A stretch of DNA of 51,631 bases from a virus. Below are positions 27,210-51,230 of this stretch, piece by piece; within the stretch, counting starts at the first letter, position 1, and each line of letters starts with the position of its first letter. Position numbers and translations under genes: made by a program. Below the pieces are notes generated by a model. That model ran no database searches. It was not told where the DNA came from and saw only the letters and a list, made by a program, of their open reading frames with translations. The stretch spans positions 1 to 51,631 of IMG/VR virus record IMGVR_UViG_3300030107_001538; one strand, written 5' to 3'.

Positions 27210-27640
27210 TCTTTCCATTCCTCCGGTAAGGTAAGTTCATCAAACCATCTAAAATTATTTTTTTCTGCCCACTCAGCATGAGTTCTTTTAGTTTTATCTC
27301 TTCTTACTTTAGCTCCGGGCATAGGGGCAAAAGGTTTTTGAAAAAAGAAAACTAACTCAATGTGTTTGGGTAAAGCTTTTTTGATGTGTATATATTTACT
27401 ATACTCAGCAAAATCCCAGAATCTGCCTTTTGCTTCTATTAGTATAACACGACCATCATCAAACTTACGAACAAAGTCTGGTTCATAAGTATGAGCAATA
27501 ACATAATCAATGTTCTCCCAATGATGTCTCCATTCAGGAAACAGTCGTTGATGAATATCATATTCCCAATGACTATCGTAGCCTCTAGGAATGTGTAATT
27601 CTTTTTTAGGTCTACGTTTTCTTGGTCTTCTTCGAGGCAT
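27206..27640 (-). CDS. T7-type endonuclease I (Holliday junction resolvase)
   Basis: 144 residues, close to T7 gp3 (149). A very basic N-terminus (RRRPRKRRPKK) precedes the catalytic core: Glu26, Asp55 in YEPDF, and Glu69-x-Lys71 in IEAKG, matching T7 Glu20, Asp55, Glu65 and Lys67. The C-terminal FRWFDELTLPEEW resembles the T7 end. It resolves branched replication and recombination intermediates and can degrade host DNA. Part of a nuclease block with the next two upstream genes. Confidence 0.9.
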   Translation of the reverse strand: MPRRRPRKRRPKKELHIPRGYDSHWEYDIHQRLFPEWRHHWENIDYVIAHTYEPDFVRKFDDGRVILIEAKGRFWDFAEYSKYIHIKKALPKHIELVFFFQKPFAPMPGAKVRRDKTKRTHAEWAEKNNFRWFDELTLPEEWKE

Positions 27641-28451
27641 TGTCTACTGCTGAATTATAATTTTTACAAAGTTTCCAATACTCTAGAATATTATTAAACA
27701 TTGCTAAATGTTTTTGATGTGATTCTTTTTCCCAAACATGATACAGAATAATCTTTGTATTTTTTCTATCTACAAATATAGATATTCTTTCTACGTCATC
27801 AAAGCCACAACCTTGAGCATAAGCTGACAGTTGCATACCATGTTCATCATAAACTAATTTAGCAGGGTCTTTGTCTTCTAAGTTATCTTTAGTTTTAAAG
27901 TCTATGAAGATACCTGATTTAGAATATAAATCTATCTTACCACCATAGCCTGAATCAGCACAGAAAGAATCTTCTGCTATCCATTCTTCTCCCGGATAAT
28001 TATCATCAAGCCATTTCTGTATATCTTTATATATTTTATTTTTAGATTTACCTAAAAAACCTTTTTCAATCTGAGCATGAATCTTTGTACCTTCTTTAGC
28101 TGCATTTATACTAATTTGTTTTGAGTCTATCTTACATCTATAAGTAAAAGATTCAGTAGATTCATCTTCATATCTTTCCAGAGATAAAGCAGAATTTAAA
28201 GCTTGATTTATTTTCCAGTTTTCTAAGGATGGTTTAGCTATCATCCCTATAATTGTAGTAACAGAAGGTACTAAACCTAAAGATTTAGCATCCCTCAGTG
28301 TGGTATTTCGTTCTTTTCCATTAGCACCAATGATAGTATACATTGGTTTTCCGTCTTGAGCATACCAGTGACCGGATTCAGACGTGAACTTATTATAATT
28401 GTCTATTTGTTTTTTGTCAAGTAAATCTTCTTCTTTATTTGCAATCATCAT
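27612..28451 (-). CDS. PD-(D/E)XK exonuclease
   Basis: 279 residues. The RecB/Cas4-like nuclease pattern is visible: VPSVTTI (about 61-67), a His in GTKIHAQIEKG (about 120-130), Asp in GGKIDLYS, the Asp-x-Lys of FIDFKTKD, and QLSAYA as the final motif. In marine T7-like phages this kind of exonuclease occupies the place of T7 gp6, processing ends during recombination and replication. It overlaps both neighbours slightly. A consensus sigma70 promoter lies inside its first codons. Confidence 0.8.
   Translation of the reverse strand: MMIANKEEDLLDKKQIDNYNKFTSESGHWYAQDGKPMYTIIGANGKERNTTLRDAKSLGLVPSVTTIIGMIAKPSLENWKINQALNSALSLERYEDESTESFTYRCKIDSKQISINAAKEGTKIHAQIEKGFLGKSKNKIYKDIQKWLDDNYPGEEWIAEDSFCADSGYGGKIDLYSKSGIFIDFKTKDNLEDKDPAKLVYDEHGMQLSAYAQGCGFDDVERISIFVDRKNTKIILYHVWEKESHQKHLAMFNNILEYWKLCKNYNSAVDNASKKTKKT
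28392..28420 (-). promoter_or_regulatory. Consensus sigma70 promoter inside the exonuclease gene
   Basis: Leftward TTGACA (28420-28415), 17-bp spacer, TATAAT (28397-28392), six of six at both boxes. It lies about 10-20 codons into the exonuclease gene and could boost the downstream endonuclease I and nrd genes. AT-rich coding DNA makes chance matches likelier, and there is no transcript evidence. Confidence 0.5.
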
Positions 28452-39787: not shown

Positions 39788-39825
39788 AAAAAAAACTCTA
39801 GAGAGCTTTTACACTCTCTAGAGTT
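39788..39825 (-). terminator. Strong leftward intrinsic terminator
   Basis: A perfect 12-bp stem, AACTCTAGAGAG (39794-39805) with CTCTCTAGAGTT (39814-39825), 8-nt loop. In the leftward direction a run of eight T follows (39795-39788). It ends the first early unit just after the 39844 gene. On the other strand there is no T-run. Confidence 0.88.
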
Positions 39826-39843
39826 CAGGAAAGTTAGGAGAGA

Positions 39844-40225: not shown

Positions 40226-40414
40226 CTAGACAGATTTATTTAAATTTATAATGTACATTTCCAAGCGGGAATACACATCATCCTTTTTTCCAGAATACTT
40301 GAAACCAAGTATCCTAAAACCTTTTGCAATATATTGTTTAGCAACTTCTAGAGCTGTAGAGACATTAGTTGTTCTAACAGTATCTTGATTGCTAAATGTT
40401 ATATCTATTATCAT
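40226..40414 (-). CDS. First gene of the early arm
   Basis: 62 residues, preceded by AAAGGAGGTAGATT. Beta-alpha-beta pattern (MIIDITFSNQDTVRTTNVST; EVAKQYIAKGFRILGFKYSG). Its ribosome site is the outer strand of the long hairpin 40422-40544 and would be masked in the folded messenger. Function unknown. A structured leader of nearly 700 nt separates it from the leftward promoter at 41114-41142. Confidence 0.6.
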   Translation of the reverse strand: MIIDITFSNQDTVRTTNVSTALEVAKQYIAKGFRILGFKYSGKKDDVYSRLEMYIINLNKSV

Positions 40415-40421
40415 AATCTAC

Positions 40422-40544
40422 CTCCTTTGATAATACTATGAGGTTACCATCGGACTTTATGCATACAAGGGTTGCTTTAGCAACTTGCGAAGCCCTTGTA
40501 GGTAAATAAAGGACTATGGTGCTCTCTTATAGTATTCAAAGGAG
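40422..40544. ncRNA. Long multi-segment hairpin that masks ribosome sites
   Basis: Paired segments from outside in: 40422-40429 with 40537-40544 (8 bp), 40432-40439 with 40529-40536 (8), 40446-40450 with 40516-40520 (5), 40455-40460 with 40506-40511 (6), 40464-40471 with 40493-40500 (8), and inner GTTGC-TTTA-GCAAC (40471-40484). About 40 pairs with small internal loops. Leftward, the outer arm is the AAAGGAGG of the 40414 gene; rightward, it is the AAAGGAG of a short frame at 40554. The most likely transcript is leftward. Riboswitch-like, but it matches no class I know. Confidence 0.6.
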
Positions 40545-40553
40545 TAAGTAGAT

Positions 40554-40738
40554 ATGGGAATAGCATATACTAGATTTAGCAATACTGTTAGAACACTTCT
40601 TGAAAGCTCTAAGAAATTGCTAAACTTGCAGAGGTACTTGGTAAGTATTCTGAAGTGATGTGTATAGTTGGGAATAAACTAGGAGGAGACCCAAGCACTA
40701 CAAAGTTGAGATATATAGTTAGGGCTAGGGTGGTCTAA
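40554..40738 (+). pseudogene. Possible frameshifted small gene
   Basis: From ATG 40554 (AAAGGAG nine nt upstream) 34 codons run to a TGA at 40656-40658. In the -1 frame a coherent continuation starts near 40612: EIAKLAEVLGKYSEVMCIVG, ending at TAA 40736-40738. Joined around AGCTCTAAGAAATT they give about 61 residues with plausible composition. It could be a decayed gene, programmed -1 shifting, a base error, or chance. It is the only rightward frame of note in 40415-41135. Confidence 0.3.
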
Positions 40739-40928
40739 TTATTTGGTAGCAAGTTTAGACTTGAAAATCCTTTAAACTTTGTAAACTAGATAACTGGCTA
40801 CTAGAACTTGCCAAGTCTTGGGTGTGTTTTGTAGAAAAGGTACAGCTCTTGCAAGTCTGAGAAGTCTGCAGAGTTCTGCTGAGAGCTGTTTAGACTTGGC
40901 AGTTCTAGGGGGAGGCAGGAGACCACCC
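40728..40928. ncRNA. 200-bp nested inverted-repeat structure
   Basis: Outer 9-bp perfect pair 40728-40736 / 40920-40928. Inside, a small hairpin CAAGT-TTAG-ACTTG (40750-40763), then an 18/17-nt arm pair 40801-40818 / 40892-40908 with one unpaired base, and within it an 8-bp perfect pair 40842-40849 / 40882-40889. The DNA is more GC-rich than its surroundings and has no convincing gene. It lies in the leader of the leftward early transcript, or could act as DNA (origin, cruciform). Confidence 0.5.
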
Positions 40929-41047
40929 CACCCCACCTATATATCTATAGCATACTCATACAAAATTACAGAAACCGGGCATTAACCAGTTAGGCTTATC
41001 TGGTTTACAAATAAACCCCGAACCCGATGGATTCTTTTAACTTACTT

Positions 41048-41103
41048 GGGAGTTTTTGGGAGGGTTGGTTTGGGCTACATCTACTATGGTAGACCCGGGG
41101 GGG
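41048..41103 (+). other. G-rich tract, G-quadruplex candidate, plus G7
   Basis: Four GGG runs (41048, 41058, 41062, 41072) with loops of 7, 1 and 7 meet the G3 quadruplex pattern. A hairpin TCTAC-TATG-GTAGA (41080-41093) and a run of seven G (41097-41103) follow. Unusual in such AT-rich DNA. It is the template side at the very start of the leftward early transcript. Confidence 0.5.
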
Positions 41104-41113
41104 CACTAAAGTT

Positions 41114-41142
41114 ATTATAGCTTCTAAATTCTATTTTGTCAA
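41114..41142 (-). promoter_or_regulatory. Leftward early promoter, perfect sigma70 consensus
   Basis: TTGACA (41142-41137), 17-bp spacer, TATAAT (41119-41114), six of six at both boxes. The start point would be near 41107, leading into the structured region 41.1-40.4 kb and the early arm. Its -35 is one half of the inverted repeat shared with the rightward promoter. Confidence 0.85.
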
Positions 41143-41154
41143 GAGGGTTGACAA
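41136..41154. promoter_or_regulatory. Shared inverted repeat across both -35 boxes (operator candidate)
   Basis: TTGTCAA-GAGGG-TTGACAA: 7-bp perfect arms with a 5-bp centre. Each arm contains the -35 of one of the divergent promoters. A dimeric protein bound here would block both, or polymerase at one promoter would exclude the other. It is the natural point for an early/late switch. Confidence 0.6.
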
Positions 41155-41176
41155 GTTTATTTTTCGACTGTATACT
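41148..41176 (+). promoter_or_regulatory. Rightward promoter for the terminase/structural arm
   Basis: TTGACA (41148-41153), 17-bp spacer, TATACT (41171-41176, five of six). The expected start point falls at about 41182-41185, on the ATG of the next gene (41184), so the messenger would be leaderless or nearly so. Confidence 0.85.
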
Positions 41177-41183
41177 AAGTAAC

Positions 41184-41618
41184 ATGGCAATACTTCCGAG
41201 TGTAACAAACGATAACAAAAGACAATTAACCGAAAAGCAGCAATCTTTTTTGAACCACCTAGTTGAAACCCAAGGAGATGCTAAAAAGGCTGCTGAGTTA
41301 GCTGGATATACCAGTCATTATCATCATGTGGTAAAGACTTTAAAGAATGAAATCCTTGAATTAACTCAAGAGGTCTTGGCAAACTCTGCACCCAAAGCAG
41401 CTTTTAAGTTAGTTGAGATTATGGAGTCTAATCGACCTATAGTTCAAGCTAACAATAAGTTGGCTGCAGCTCAAACTCTCTTAGATAGAGTAGGAGTAAG
41501 CAAAGTAGATAAGCTAGATGTAAATCATAACGTGAGCAATGGTATCTTTTTAATGCCCGATAAAGCTCCAATTAATTTAGACAAGGAAGATTATGAAGAT
41601 ATTTCTGACGGAAATTGA
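41184..41618 (+). CDS. Small terminase subunit candidate
   Basis: 144 residues from ATG 41184. An upstream TTG frame to 41136 overlaps the promoter and is rejected. The N-terminal half has the Terminase_2-like pattern LTEKQQSFLNHLVETQGDAKKAAELAGY, a helix-turn-helix that would recognise packaging sites, then a helical oligomerisation region with APKAAFKLVEIME and NKLAAAQTLLDRVGV. The C-terminus is acidic. The large subunit is about 2.6 kb downstream, separated by an accessory cluster. No ribosome site precedes the start, consistent with a leaderless transcript. Confidence 0.7.
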   Translation: MAILPSVTNDNKRQLTEKQQSFLNHLVETQGDAKKAAELAGYTSHYHHVVKTLKNEILELTQEVLANSAPKAAFKLVEIMESNRPIVQANNKLAAAQTLLDRVGVSKVDKLDVNHNVSNGIFLMPDKAPINLDKEDYEDISDGN

Positions 41619-41793
41619 AAAAGAAGGTAGAAGATATGCAGGTCCTAATATACTTGCCGAGACTTGGGAGTTAGCTCAAGAGGCTGCTCAGTTTAATAAT
41701 TTGATATTAGTTGGCGAATTTGTGGAAATAATTGCAGATGGCGATTCAATGCACTATTTAGAAAAGCATACAAAACCAAAGACTTTACATTAA
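41593..41793 (+). CDS. Small acidic protein ahead of iscU
   Basis: 66 residues, alpha/beta (KIFLTEIEKEGRRYAGPNIL; NNLILVGEFVEIIADGDSMH). It overlaps the terminase gene by 26 bp and shares one base with iscU (TAATG), so it is translated with it. Function unknown. Confidence 0.5.
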   Translation: MKIFLTEIEKEGRRYAGPNILAETWELAQEAAQFNNLILVGEFVEIIADGDSMHYLEKHTKPKTLH

Positions 41794-42242
41794 TGGCATA
41801 TTCTAGACAAGTAGTAGATAGGTTTGAAAGTGTTTTAAATAACCCGGACAAACATGCAGTCGGTAGGTTTGACCCTAACGACCCTAATGTGGCTACCGGT
41901 TTAACCGGAGCACCTGCTTGTGGCGATGTTATGAAGTTGCAATTAAAGTTAGCTGGTGATATTATCGAAGATGTAAAGTTTAAAACTTATGGTTGTGGTT
42001 CGGCAATAGCTTCTAGCACTATGTTTGTTGATATGTTAAAAGGTAAAACTATTACCGAAGCTAAACAAATAAAAGATGCAGATATAGCTAAAGCTCTAGA
42101 TTTACCTCCAATAAAACTACACTGTAGTGTTTTAGCCGAAGAAAGTATTACCAAAGCAATAGCAAATTGGGAAGCAAAAGTAAAACATAGACAACATAAT
42201 CAATATGGCAGCAAAGAAGAAAAAGAAAAGTACAGTAAATAA
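41793..42242 (+). CDS. iscU: IscU-type Fe-S cluster scaffold protein
   Basis: 149 residues. Very close to bacterial IscU over residues 1-128: Cys43 and Asp45 in PACGDVMKLQ, Cys68 in TYGCGSAIASS, and Cys111 in KLHCSVLAEES after the LPPIK motif (104-108) that the chaperone HscA binds. His110 matches the conserved ligand. All scaffold residues are present, so it should assemble 2Fe-2S clusters with host IscS. The last 20 residues are a basic tail coded in the overlap with the next gene. A host-derived auxiliary metabolic gene; no other isc gene is nearby. Phage Fe-S demand, or host NrdA/redox support during infection, are possible reasons. Confidence 0.92.
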   Translation: MAYSRQVVDRFESVLNNPDKHAVGRFDPNDPNVATGLTGAPACGDVMKLQLKLAGDIIEDVKFKTYGCGSAIASSTMFVDMLKGKTITEAKQIKDADIAKALDLPPIKLHCSVLAEESITKAIANWEAKVKHRQHNQYGSKEEKEKYSK

Positions 42243-43498: not shown

Positions 43499-43612
43499 AT
43501 CGTTCAGCTCGTAAGAGCCGGAAGTAGATTAGAAAAGAAAACCTCCCTAGTAATAGGGGTAAGCTAAGTACTAGCAATAGGAACAGAGACCGACATCTAT
43601 CGAAGGAACGCA
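43499..43612 (+). promoter_or_regulatory. Candidate glutamine riboswitch (glnA / downstream-peptide type)
   Basis: Conserved parts of the glutamine riboswitch are visible in order. CGTTCA (43501-43506) opens P1. Hairpin GCTC-GTAA-GAGC (43507-43518) is followed by CGGAAGTAG (43519-43527). GAAGGAACGC (43602-43611) closes P1, with GAACG pairing to CGTTC. Between them are hairpin CCCTA-GTAA-TAGGG (43545-43558) and GCTA-AGTAC-TAGC (43563-43575). The next gene is a short conserved peptide, as in the downstream-peptide variant of cyanobacteria and marine phages. It would sense glutamine, i.e. cell nitrogen status. Confidence 0.8.
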
Positions 43613-43618
43613 ATGGGT

Positions 43619-43663: not shown

Positions 43664-43780
43664 ATGTATTGCTATAGAGGTATTAGATATAATGCAAAAG
43701 ACCTTAAGAAGCAAGTCAAGAAATCTAAGAAAAGTGACACTGTTACTTATCGTGGAATAACTGGCAAACTTGCTGCTTAA
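43664..43780 (+). CDS. Riboswitch-controlled YRG peptide (DUF4278-like)
   Basis: 38 residues with two YRG motifs: CYRGIRYN at 3-10 and TYRGITG at 28-34, with a Lys-rich linker. DUF4278 proteins of cyanobacteria and cyanophages have the same YRGxxY units. Downstream-peptide genes under glutamine riboswitches are short peptides like this. GGAG precedes the ATG. The function is not known; binding to a host nitrogen-metabolism target is a possibility, as small inhibitor peptides do in cyanobacteria. Confidence 0.75.
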   Translation: MYCYRGIRYNAKDLKKQVKKSKKSDTVTYRGITGKLAA

Positions 43781-44248: not shown

Positions 44249-45866
44249 GTACTTGACAAACTCTCAAGGAGAGTATATACTAAACAAAGATGGTACACCT
44301 CGTAAAAAAGGTGGTAGACCTAAAAATTCTGAATTATCTGATATTCAATTAGCTTTAAGAGCTAAAAAGAAATTAGATAAAAAGAATAATAAAGTAAAAA
44401 AACTAACAAGAAGTTTAGCTAAAGTACAAAAAGAAGCTAAAGCAGAAGAAAAAGCTTTAACTTCAAATGTTCTAACTCAAGAAGACACTAAAGTTCTTCC
44501 AGATGAAATACAAGAACATTTAGATACAACTGGGTCTCATGTGGCATTTATGCCTAATGAAGGACCACAGACAGATTTTTTAGCTGCATCAGAAAAAGAT
44601 GTTCTTTATGGAGGTGCAGCCGGTGGAGGAAAAAGCTTTGCAATGCTTATCGACCCACTAAGGTATTGTCATAAGTCAGCTCATCGAGCTTTAATACTTA
44701 GAAGGTCAATGCCAGAGCTTAGAGAACTTATAGATAAATCTAGGGAATTGTATCCAAAAGCTTTTCCCGGAGCTAAGTTTAAAGAAGTAGAAAAGTTATG
44801 GAGCTTTCCTTCTGGAGCTAAAATAGAATTTGGATTTTTGGAACGAGATGCAGATGTGTATCGTTATCAAGGACAAGCCTATAGTTGGATTGGTTTTGAT
44901 GAAATAACACATTTACCAACAGAGTTTGGTTGGAACTATCTAGCATCTAGGTTAAGAACAACTGACCCAGAGCTACCAACGTATTTACGTTGTACAGCTA
45001 ACCCGGGAGGGGTAGGTGCTCAATGGGTTAAAAAAAGATACGTTGAACCTGATGAACATAATAAAAGTTTTATTGGTCATGATGGTTTAACTAGGAAGTT
45101 TATCCCAGCTCGATTGCAGGATAATCCTTTCCTAGCCGAAGACGGTGAGTATGAACGAATGTTACTTTCGTTACCTGCTGTACAAAGAAAGCAGTTATTA
45201 GAAGGTAATTGGGATATTAGTGAAGGTGCTGCTTTTGCTGAGTTTGACCCAAGTATGCATGTAATTACTCCTTTTGAAATACCGACTTGGTGGGAAAGAA
45301 TAAAAGCAGTAGACTATGGATATGCTTCAGAGAGTTGTTGCCTTTGGGCTGCAGTAGACCCTGAAGATAAGACCATCATTATATATAGAGAATTATACGA
45401 AAAAGGTCTTACAGGGGAAGCTCTAGGTAACAAGATGACAGATTTAGAAAGTAGTGAAGTTAAGTCAATAACAGGTGTATTAGATACTGCTGCTTGGTCA
45501 AGGACAGGTTATACTGGTCCTACTATTGGTGAAACCTTAATTAAACAAGGTCACAAATTAAGACGAGCTGATAAGAATCGAATAGCAGGTAAGATTCAAA
45601 TACATGAACATTTGCGACAAGACAGGAATACCGGCAGACCTAGATTGCAAATATTAAGTACATGTACGAATTTAATAAAAGAATTACAAAGTTTGCCTTT
45701 ATCACGTTCTAATTCTGAGGATGTAGATACACATTCGGCTGACCATGCATATGATGCTTTACGTTATATGATTATGAGTAGACCAAAAATGGACCATCCT
45801 TATGATAGAATGTTGAAAATTAAAACAGATATATATGAGCCATCAGATGGCACATTTGGATACTAA
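44220..45866 (+). CDS. terL: Terminase large subunit
   Basis: 548 residues. ATPase: Walker A GGAAGGGKS (131-139), Walker B SWIGFDE (222-228, Glu228 catalytic), coupling motif CTANPGG (258-264). Nuclease: Asp365 in AVDYGYAS, Asp422 in VLDTAAW, and the C-terminal acidic pair in DHAYDALRYM. It pumps DNA into the prohead and cuts it. A Lys-rich N-terminal extension (about 26-80) may bind DNA or the small subunit. A consensus promoter lies within the first 25 codons. It joins the portal gene as TAATG. Confidence 0.95.
   Translation: MEDWEKNPHKYLTNSQGEYILNKDGTPRKKGGRPKNSELSDIQLALRAKKKLDKKNNKVKKLTRSLAKVQKEAKAEEKALTSNVLTQEDTKVLPDEIQEHLDTTGSHVAFMPNEGPQTDFLAASEKDVLYGGAAGGGKSFAMLIDPLRYCHKSAHRALILRRSMPELRELIDKSRELYPKAFPGAKFKEVEKLWSFPSGAKIEFGFLERDADVYRYQGQAYSWIGFDEITHLPTEFGWNYLASRLRTTDPELPTYLRCTANPGGVGAQWVKKRYVEPDEHNKSFIGHDGLTRKFIPARLQDNPFLAEDGEYERMLLSLPAVQRKQLLEGNWDISEGAAFAEFDPSMHVITPFEIPTWWERIKAVDYGYASESCCLWAAVDPEDKTIIIYRELYEKGLTGEALGNKMTDLESSEVKSITGVLDTAAWSRTGYTGPTIGETLIKQGHKLRRADKNRIAGKIQIHEHLRQDRNTGRPRLQILSTCTNLIKELQSLPLSRSNSEDVDTHSADHAYDALRYMIMSRPKMDHPYDRMLKIKTDIYEPSDGTFGY
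44253..44281 (+). promoter_or_regulatory. Sigma70 promoter inside the start of terL
   Basis: TTGACA (44253-44258), 17-bp spacer, TATACT (44276-44281), the same boxes as the promoter at 41148. The spacer contains an inverted repeat CTCTC-AAG-GAGAG (44261-44273) that could be an operator. It would make a second, perhaps late, rightward transcript for portal and head genes. Confidence 0.5.
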
Positions 45867-51201: not shown

Positions 51202-51230
51202 GGGGGAGTCTTCGGACTCCTCCTTTTTTT
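51202..51230 (+). terminator. Strong intrinsic terminator after the capsid gene
   Basis: Nine-bp GC-rich stem (51202-51210 with 51215-51223, one G-U pair), TTCG tetraloop (51211-51214), then seven T (51224-51230). A textbook Rho-independent terminator that would set the high capsid transcript apart from the downstream genes. Confidence 0.93.

Follow-up and report, generated by a model that had tools for sequence, protein, structure and literature searches.

The 51,631-nucleotide stretch of viral DNA analysed here (the window) carries two predicted near-consensus promoters of the host sigma70 type, placed back to back, and by its sequence this pair is conserved across the pelagiphage-like branches of the HMO-2011-type phage group. 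In the reading that we consider best, and somewhat probable, these are ordinary divergent promoters for the host sigma70 polymerase that have an unusual, conserved helical phasing. The phasing was found in the clade of the window only, where the distance between the two -35 boxes changed mostly by whole turns of the helix and the rotational register looks to be under selection.

The leftward promoter, P_L, consists of the exact -35 consensus TTGACA (41137..41142, minus strand) and a -10 box TATAAT (41114..41119, minus strand), with a predicted transcription start at about 41107. The rightward promoter, P_R, has TTGACA at 41148..41153 and TATACT at 41171..41176 (both on the plus strand), and its start is predicted at 41183/41184. 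P_L matched the consensus at 12/12 positions and P_R at 11/12, each with a 17-bp spacing, inside the 16-18 bp of sigma70-type promoters. The coordinates, matches and 17-bp spacers of the divergent TTGACA-17-TATAAT and TTGACA-17-TATACT elements described in the sequence-only reading were confirmed, as was its observation that the -35 boxes lie 5 bp apart and form the inverted repeat TTGTCAA-N5-TTGACAA. Positions 41136..41154 read TTGTCAAGAGGGTTGACAA, that is TTGTCAA-GAGGG-TTGACAA, and the exact TTGTCAA-N5-TTGACAA motif occurred once in the whole record. The two promoters share neither a -10 nor a -35 element, and about 76 bp lie between their predicted starts. Only 1 of 400 simulated sequences with the dinucleotide make-up of the window contained a divergent pair with at least 11/12 matches in each promoter, and a chance origin is untenable because the pair is conserved in relatives.

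The best TerL and TerS hits and the gene content placed the window among HMO-2011-type phages, in the pelagiphage branch. The closest cultured phages were the Pelagibacter phages HTVC115P, HTVC103P and HTVC104P (TerL 65-66% and TerS 53-55% identical), followed by HTVC033P (TerL 50%, TerS 43%); phages 103P, 104P, 115P and 033P have been grouped with HMO-2011-type phages (PMC9038755). Megablast of the window against cultured phages gave no match. The G+C content of 33.4% is inside the range given for SAR11-type subgroups (PMC9038755), and we infer a SAR11 host. Leftward genes run from 40414 to 23894 and comprise a 62-aa protein of unknown function, small early genes, primase/helicase, a family A DNA polymerase, exonuclease, endonuclease and ribonucleotide reductase. 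Rightward from 41184 follow terS, a NifU-like protein, terL, portal and capsid, and the tail, fibre and lysis genes at the beginning of the window are rightward as well. The promoter pair is the sole divergence point of this gene map, as had been claimed for the leftward early genes on one side and the packaging and structural genes on the other; early and late timing is assigned here from gene content only. Family scans found no phage RNA polymerase among the larger proteins, which agrees with the description of a phage without its own polymerase; a PF00940 search of the window was empty, yet its control likewise gave no match.

Several other features were seen along this map. The NifU-like Fe-S scaffold gene (41793-42242, plus strand; PF01592, 1.7e-37) lies within the packaging block. 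A glutamine riboswitch (RF01739, 49.4 bits) was detected at 43499-43614 of the window (plus strand), between terS and terL, and the ORF downstream of it (43664-43777) encodes a 38-aa DUF4278-like peptide; riboswitches of this class have been described from a marine OM43 phage and from phages related to it (PMC9004378). A second exact TTGACA-17-TATAAT occurs at 28420-28392 (minus strand) inside an exonuclease-like gene (27612-28451). Strong hairpins with T-runs that resemble intrinsic terminators were present in the early region (39793-39826, minus strand) and after the capsid gene (51202-51223, plus strand).

Both promoters were present in all of the best 80 IMG/VR relatives, with the -35 box of P_L kept in 80/80 and both boxes of P_R conserved. 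Each search covered the 80-120 best relatives, and gap counts refer to the matches listed. A divergent pair with at least 10/12 matches in each promoter was found upstream of terS in 314 of the 406 listed loci with a TerS relative, among them those of the cultured phages HTVC103P, HTVC115P and HTVC033P. No pair was found upstream of terS in HMO-2011 and the Roseobacter CRP phages.

The same comparison bears on the proposal of the sequence-only reading that the 5-bp interlock is a minimal, mutually exclusive switch, in which only one polymerase fits and the pair alone decides between early and late transcription. In the window and its close kin (24 loci), 5 bp separate the two -35 boxes. By established promoter geometry two holoenzymes should clash at this distance, so that geometry would lead one to expect polymerase competition in the window, where it would be a local side effect rather than the conserved purpose. 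Such competition has been documented at E. coli bidirectional promoters, although separate divergent promoters were unaffected by these clashes (PMC12825309). A sterically exclusive pair should have a spacing that is both short and conserved, whereas most other relatives, close and distant, including sister lineages with the same downstream gene, carry the same pair with gaps of 14-59 bp. Since the gap ranges from 5 to 59 bp among relatives, steric mutual exclusion is not the conserved function, and a conserved 5-bp interlock was ruled out; when related phages were searched, as had been suggested, both boxes held up (best 80/80) and the 5-bp centre did not. Neither promoter need block the other, and in most relatives they would lie far enough apart for joint occupancy. 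The sequence moreover gives no directionality in time, and the structural genes have another predicted promoter. The designation as a master mutually exclusive switch is therefore not supported, and we consider an exclusive switch very improbable.

The gaps were not distributed evenly within the window clade, which we defined as loci whose TerS is at least 75% identical to that of the window or of locus L078 and which contained 79 distinct spacers. They fell at 5, 14-17, 25-27, 36-37, 46 and 56 bp, corresponding to distances of about 11, 21, 32, 42, 52 and 62 bp between the centres of the -35 boxes, with a lone exception of 8 bp (L481). Parsimony on the terS tree of this clade gave 11 changes of gap class. 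The phasing was noticed before being tested; in the test, ten independent pairs, defined as non-overlapping paths on the tree, differed by 10, 10, 10, 10, 10, 11, 11, 12, 18 and 29 bp (p = 0.0003 against uniform differences). It is these whole-turn changes that make the rotational register look selected in the window clade. A helical phasing common to the entire TerS family was ruled out, since 20 pairs from the other TerS clades showed no phase (p = 0.63). Spacers of at least 14 bp were 71-80% A+T, with A/T-rich blocks adjoining both -35 boxes. These blocks have the position expected of UP elements, to which the C-terminal domains of the polymerase alpha subunits bind in E. coli; a 5-bp spacer leaves no room for such a UP-like element. 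In the sabA promoter of H. pylori, the helical phase of UP-like DNA relative to the core promoter sets the level of expression (PMC4081817).

We also examined back-to-back promoters with exact consensus boxes at loci that have no TerS relative, taken from viral contigs and from bacterial genomes, the latter mostly Clostridia. Among the pairs listed with gaps of 0-30 bp, those from unrelated viruses had a phase of 4.3 (n = 82, p = 0.006) and those from bacterial genomes a phase of 6.4 (n = 110, p = 0.009), both against a smooth null. This weak preference for a similar phase is a lead and not proof. The unrelated phage pairs listed with gaps of 31-61 bp had no phase preference (n = 70, p = 0.8), and a phasing rule for unrelated pairs beyond 30 bp was ruled out. 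The literature searched offered nothing direct on the phasing of divergent promoters. Only tentatively, as a possibility somewhat short of even, do we propose a selected register for back-to-back sigma70 promoters: their distance would change in evolution by whole turns, up to about five, and the two promoters, or the polymerases bound to them, would work as a single unit on the same face of the helix.

Two other accounts of the spacing have to be weighed against selection on the promoters themselves. The -35 boxes could at the same time be the two half-sites of an operator. A regulator from the host or the phage would then bind them cooperatively and switch the direction of transcription, and cooperative or looped binding on one face would demand whole-turn spacing. 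The TTGTCAA/TTGACAA repeat is inverted, a seventh A is conserved on most of the -35 boxes (TTGACAA), and a gene of HTVC103P is annotated as a LexA-like repressor. However, the motif is merely the -35 consensus, and other clades have a degenerate or direct version of the repeat (TTGTCA for the 103 clade and TAGACA for the 033 clade); family scans recognised no repressor or regulator domain in the window, where most early genes are without recognised function. We regard this account as unlikely. The whole-turn steps could also be a mutational artefact, produced by slippage of A/T-rich repeats of 10-11 bp at promoters that are indifferent to their spacing. One locus, L049, has a gap of 37 bp against 26 bp in its close kin, as if an 11-bp unit had been duplicated in tandem, and other clades tolerate changes of 4-9 bp. 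Against slippage, reading further class changes (5/15, 26/14 and 36/46) revealed no evident duplicated unit, and across the 79 distinct spacers the length within a class was steady to 1-2 bp despite the ease of single-base slips in A-runs. An artefact of this kind seems to us equally doubtful.

If the pair consists of phased but otherwise ordinary sigma70 promoters, as we prefer, both -35 boxes would stay on the same helix face throughout the window clade. The most likely reason for the register would be a shared upstream platform that works only when in register, used either by both polymerases or by alpha C-terminal domains on the A/T-rich, UP-like DNA between the promoters. Such a sigma70/alpha account and a protein that binds TTGTCAA/TTGACAA both fit the register, and the two are not distinguished. 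Host RNA polymerase starting leftward at about 41107 would transcribe a long untranslated stretch ahead of the first early gene, and starting rightward on, or next to, the A of the ATG of terS it would produce a leaderless terS mRNA, with a separate promoter inside terL supplementing the supply of late genes.

The predicted leftward transcript begins with a noncoding leader of 693 nt (40415..41107, minus strand). A GC-rich inverted repeat, roughly CCNCCNGGG, which may act as an RNA hairpin or an operator, lies just past the start (41093..41104, minus strand) and was found after the predicted leftward start in every clade, with the weakest hairpin in the 115 clade. In most relatives, the nearest leftward gene that has a ribosome-binding site began about 500-1100 nt further on. 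The fold z-score of the leader in the window was -9.2 over its full length, and those of the first 500 nt in relatives ranged from above 0 to -6, a scatter that ruled out strong folding as a feature of the family. A block of about 105 bp within the leader was conserved (40904..41010, minus strand); it contains an AACYAG..CTGGTTAA inverted repeat with a variable loop, a well-kept stretch similar to TGTATGAGTATGCTATAGATATA, a strand-uniform G- or C-rich tract, and TGGTCTCCTGCC. This block is possibly a replication origin, a packaging site or the site of a regulator. RNAalifold gave no consensus RNA structure for it, and the leader had no match in Rfam. In four pairs of near-identical relatives (L188/L190, L191/L192, L194/L195 and L049/L064) a leader tract of 15-20 bp was G-rich in one partner and C-rich in the other; the flanks were nearly unchanged, and the tract appears to have been replaced or inverted. 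Long-range RNA pairing of the tract was rejected, as no compensatory flips were seen by eye in the first three of these pairs. The leader ends at the first leftward gene (40226..40414, minus strand), which encodes the 62-aa protein and is preceded by the Shine-Dalgarno sequence AAAGGAGG.

On the rightward side, terS (41184..41618, plus strand) encodes a small terminase subunit of 144 aa (phrog_51, 9e-6; phrog_2538, 6.5e-5). Its ATG lies 7 nt past the -10 box and has no Shine-Dalgarno sequence. Of 203 distinct contexts of promoter and terS, 134 had a distance of 6-7 nt, as did every listed locus of the window clade, the exceptions being a group with 3 nt, genes that seemingly start further downstream, and leaders of about 155 nt in the 033 clade. 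Given the usual start site of sigma70-type promoters, 6-8 nt past the -10 box, the terS mRNA would be leaderless, judged from this geometry only; leaderless transcripts occur in alphaproteobacteria (PMC3616915). A second rightward promoter, TTGACA-17-TATACT, lies in the coding sequence of terL (44253..44281, plus strand) and was kept in 49/50 loci at 11/12 matching, which is the unbiased figure. In 48 distinct contexts, which had been collected by the exact pattern, the codons TTG and ACA were invariant; the usual leucine codon in terL is TTA (28 TTA versus 8 TTG). The encoded residues varied across the -10 box, which read TATACT or TATAAT throughout. In HTVC103P and HTVC115P a similar promoter stands directly before the portal gene. 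With these promoters, the earlier claim that all rightward structural genes start from the divergent pair is not supported, and, given the conserved terL promoter, late transcription would not depend on the pair alone.

Together these features predict that, in one of the most abundant groups of marine phages, terS is leaderless, the early transcript has a long untranslated leader and a promoter lies inside terL. We found no description of the transcription programme of the HMO-2011-type group in the literature searched; a transcriptome study of pelagiphages covers HTVC022P and HTVC027P and has HMO-2011 in its reference list only (PMC12753301). Should the register prove functional, these phages would provide a natural series in which one promoter pair is spaced by one to six helical turns, ready for direct tests of the mutual influence of divergent RNA polymerases.

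Among cultured relatives, HTVC103P, 115P and 033P resemble the window in the divergent pair upstream of terS, although HTVC033P differs in its terS leader of roughly 155 nt; HMO-2011 and the Roseobacter CRP phages have genes of the same direction upstream of terS instead of the pair. The PR/PRM region of phage lambda likewise has back-to-back promoters for host sigma70 with divergent starts about 80 bp apart, and there too one transcript is leaderless, namely cI from PRM, compared with the predicted terS here. Unlike lambda, the pair described here has no recognised tandem operators or flanking repressor or cro genes; it is flanked by terS and the unknown 62-aa gene, no repressor domain was recognised among early genes that mostly have no recognised function, the leaderless gene is terS, and the spacing between the promoters varies among relatives. 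E. coli bidirectional promoters are similar in that divergent transcription arises from a short region and nearby polymerases may compete, but they have shared or overlapping -10 elements and starts that are commonly 10-23 bp apart (Warman, Grainger and colleagues; PMC12825309), whereas the pair here has no element in common and its predicted starts (41107 and 41183/41184) are far more distant. The H. pylori sabA promoter is a precedent for an A/T tract upstream of a -35 box whose effect depends on helical phase, expression peaking at intervals of about 10 bp; it is a single promoter with a phase-variable tract, whereas the register described here lies between two divergent promoters and was kept over evolution (PMC4081817).
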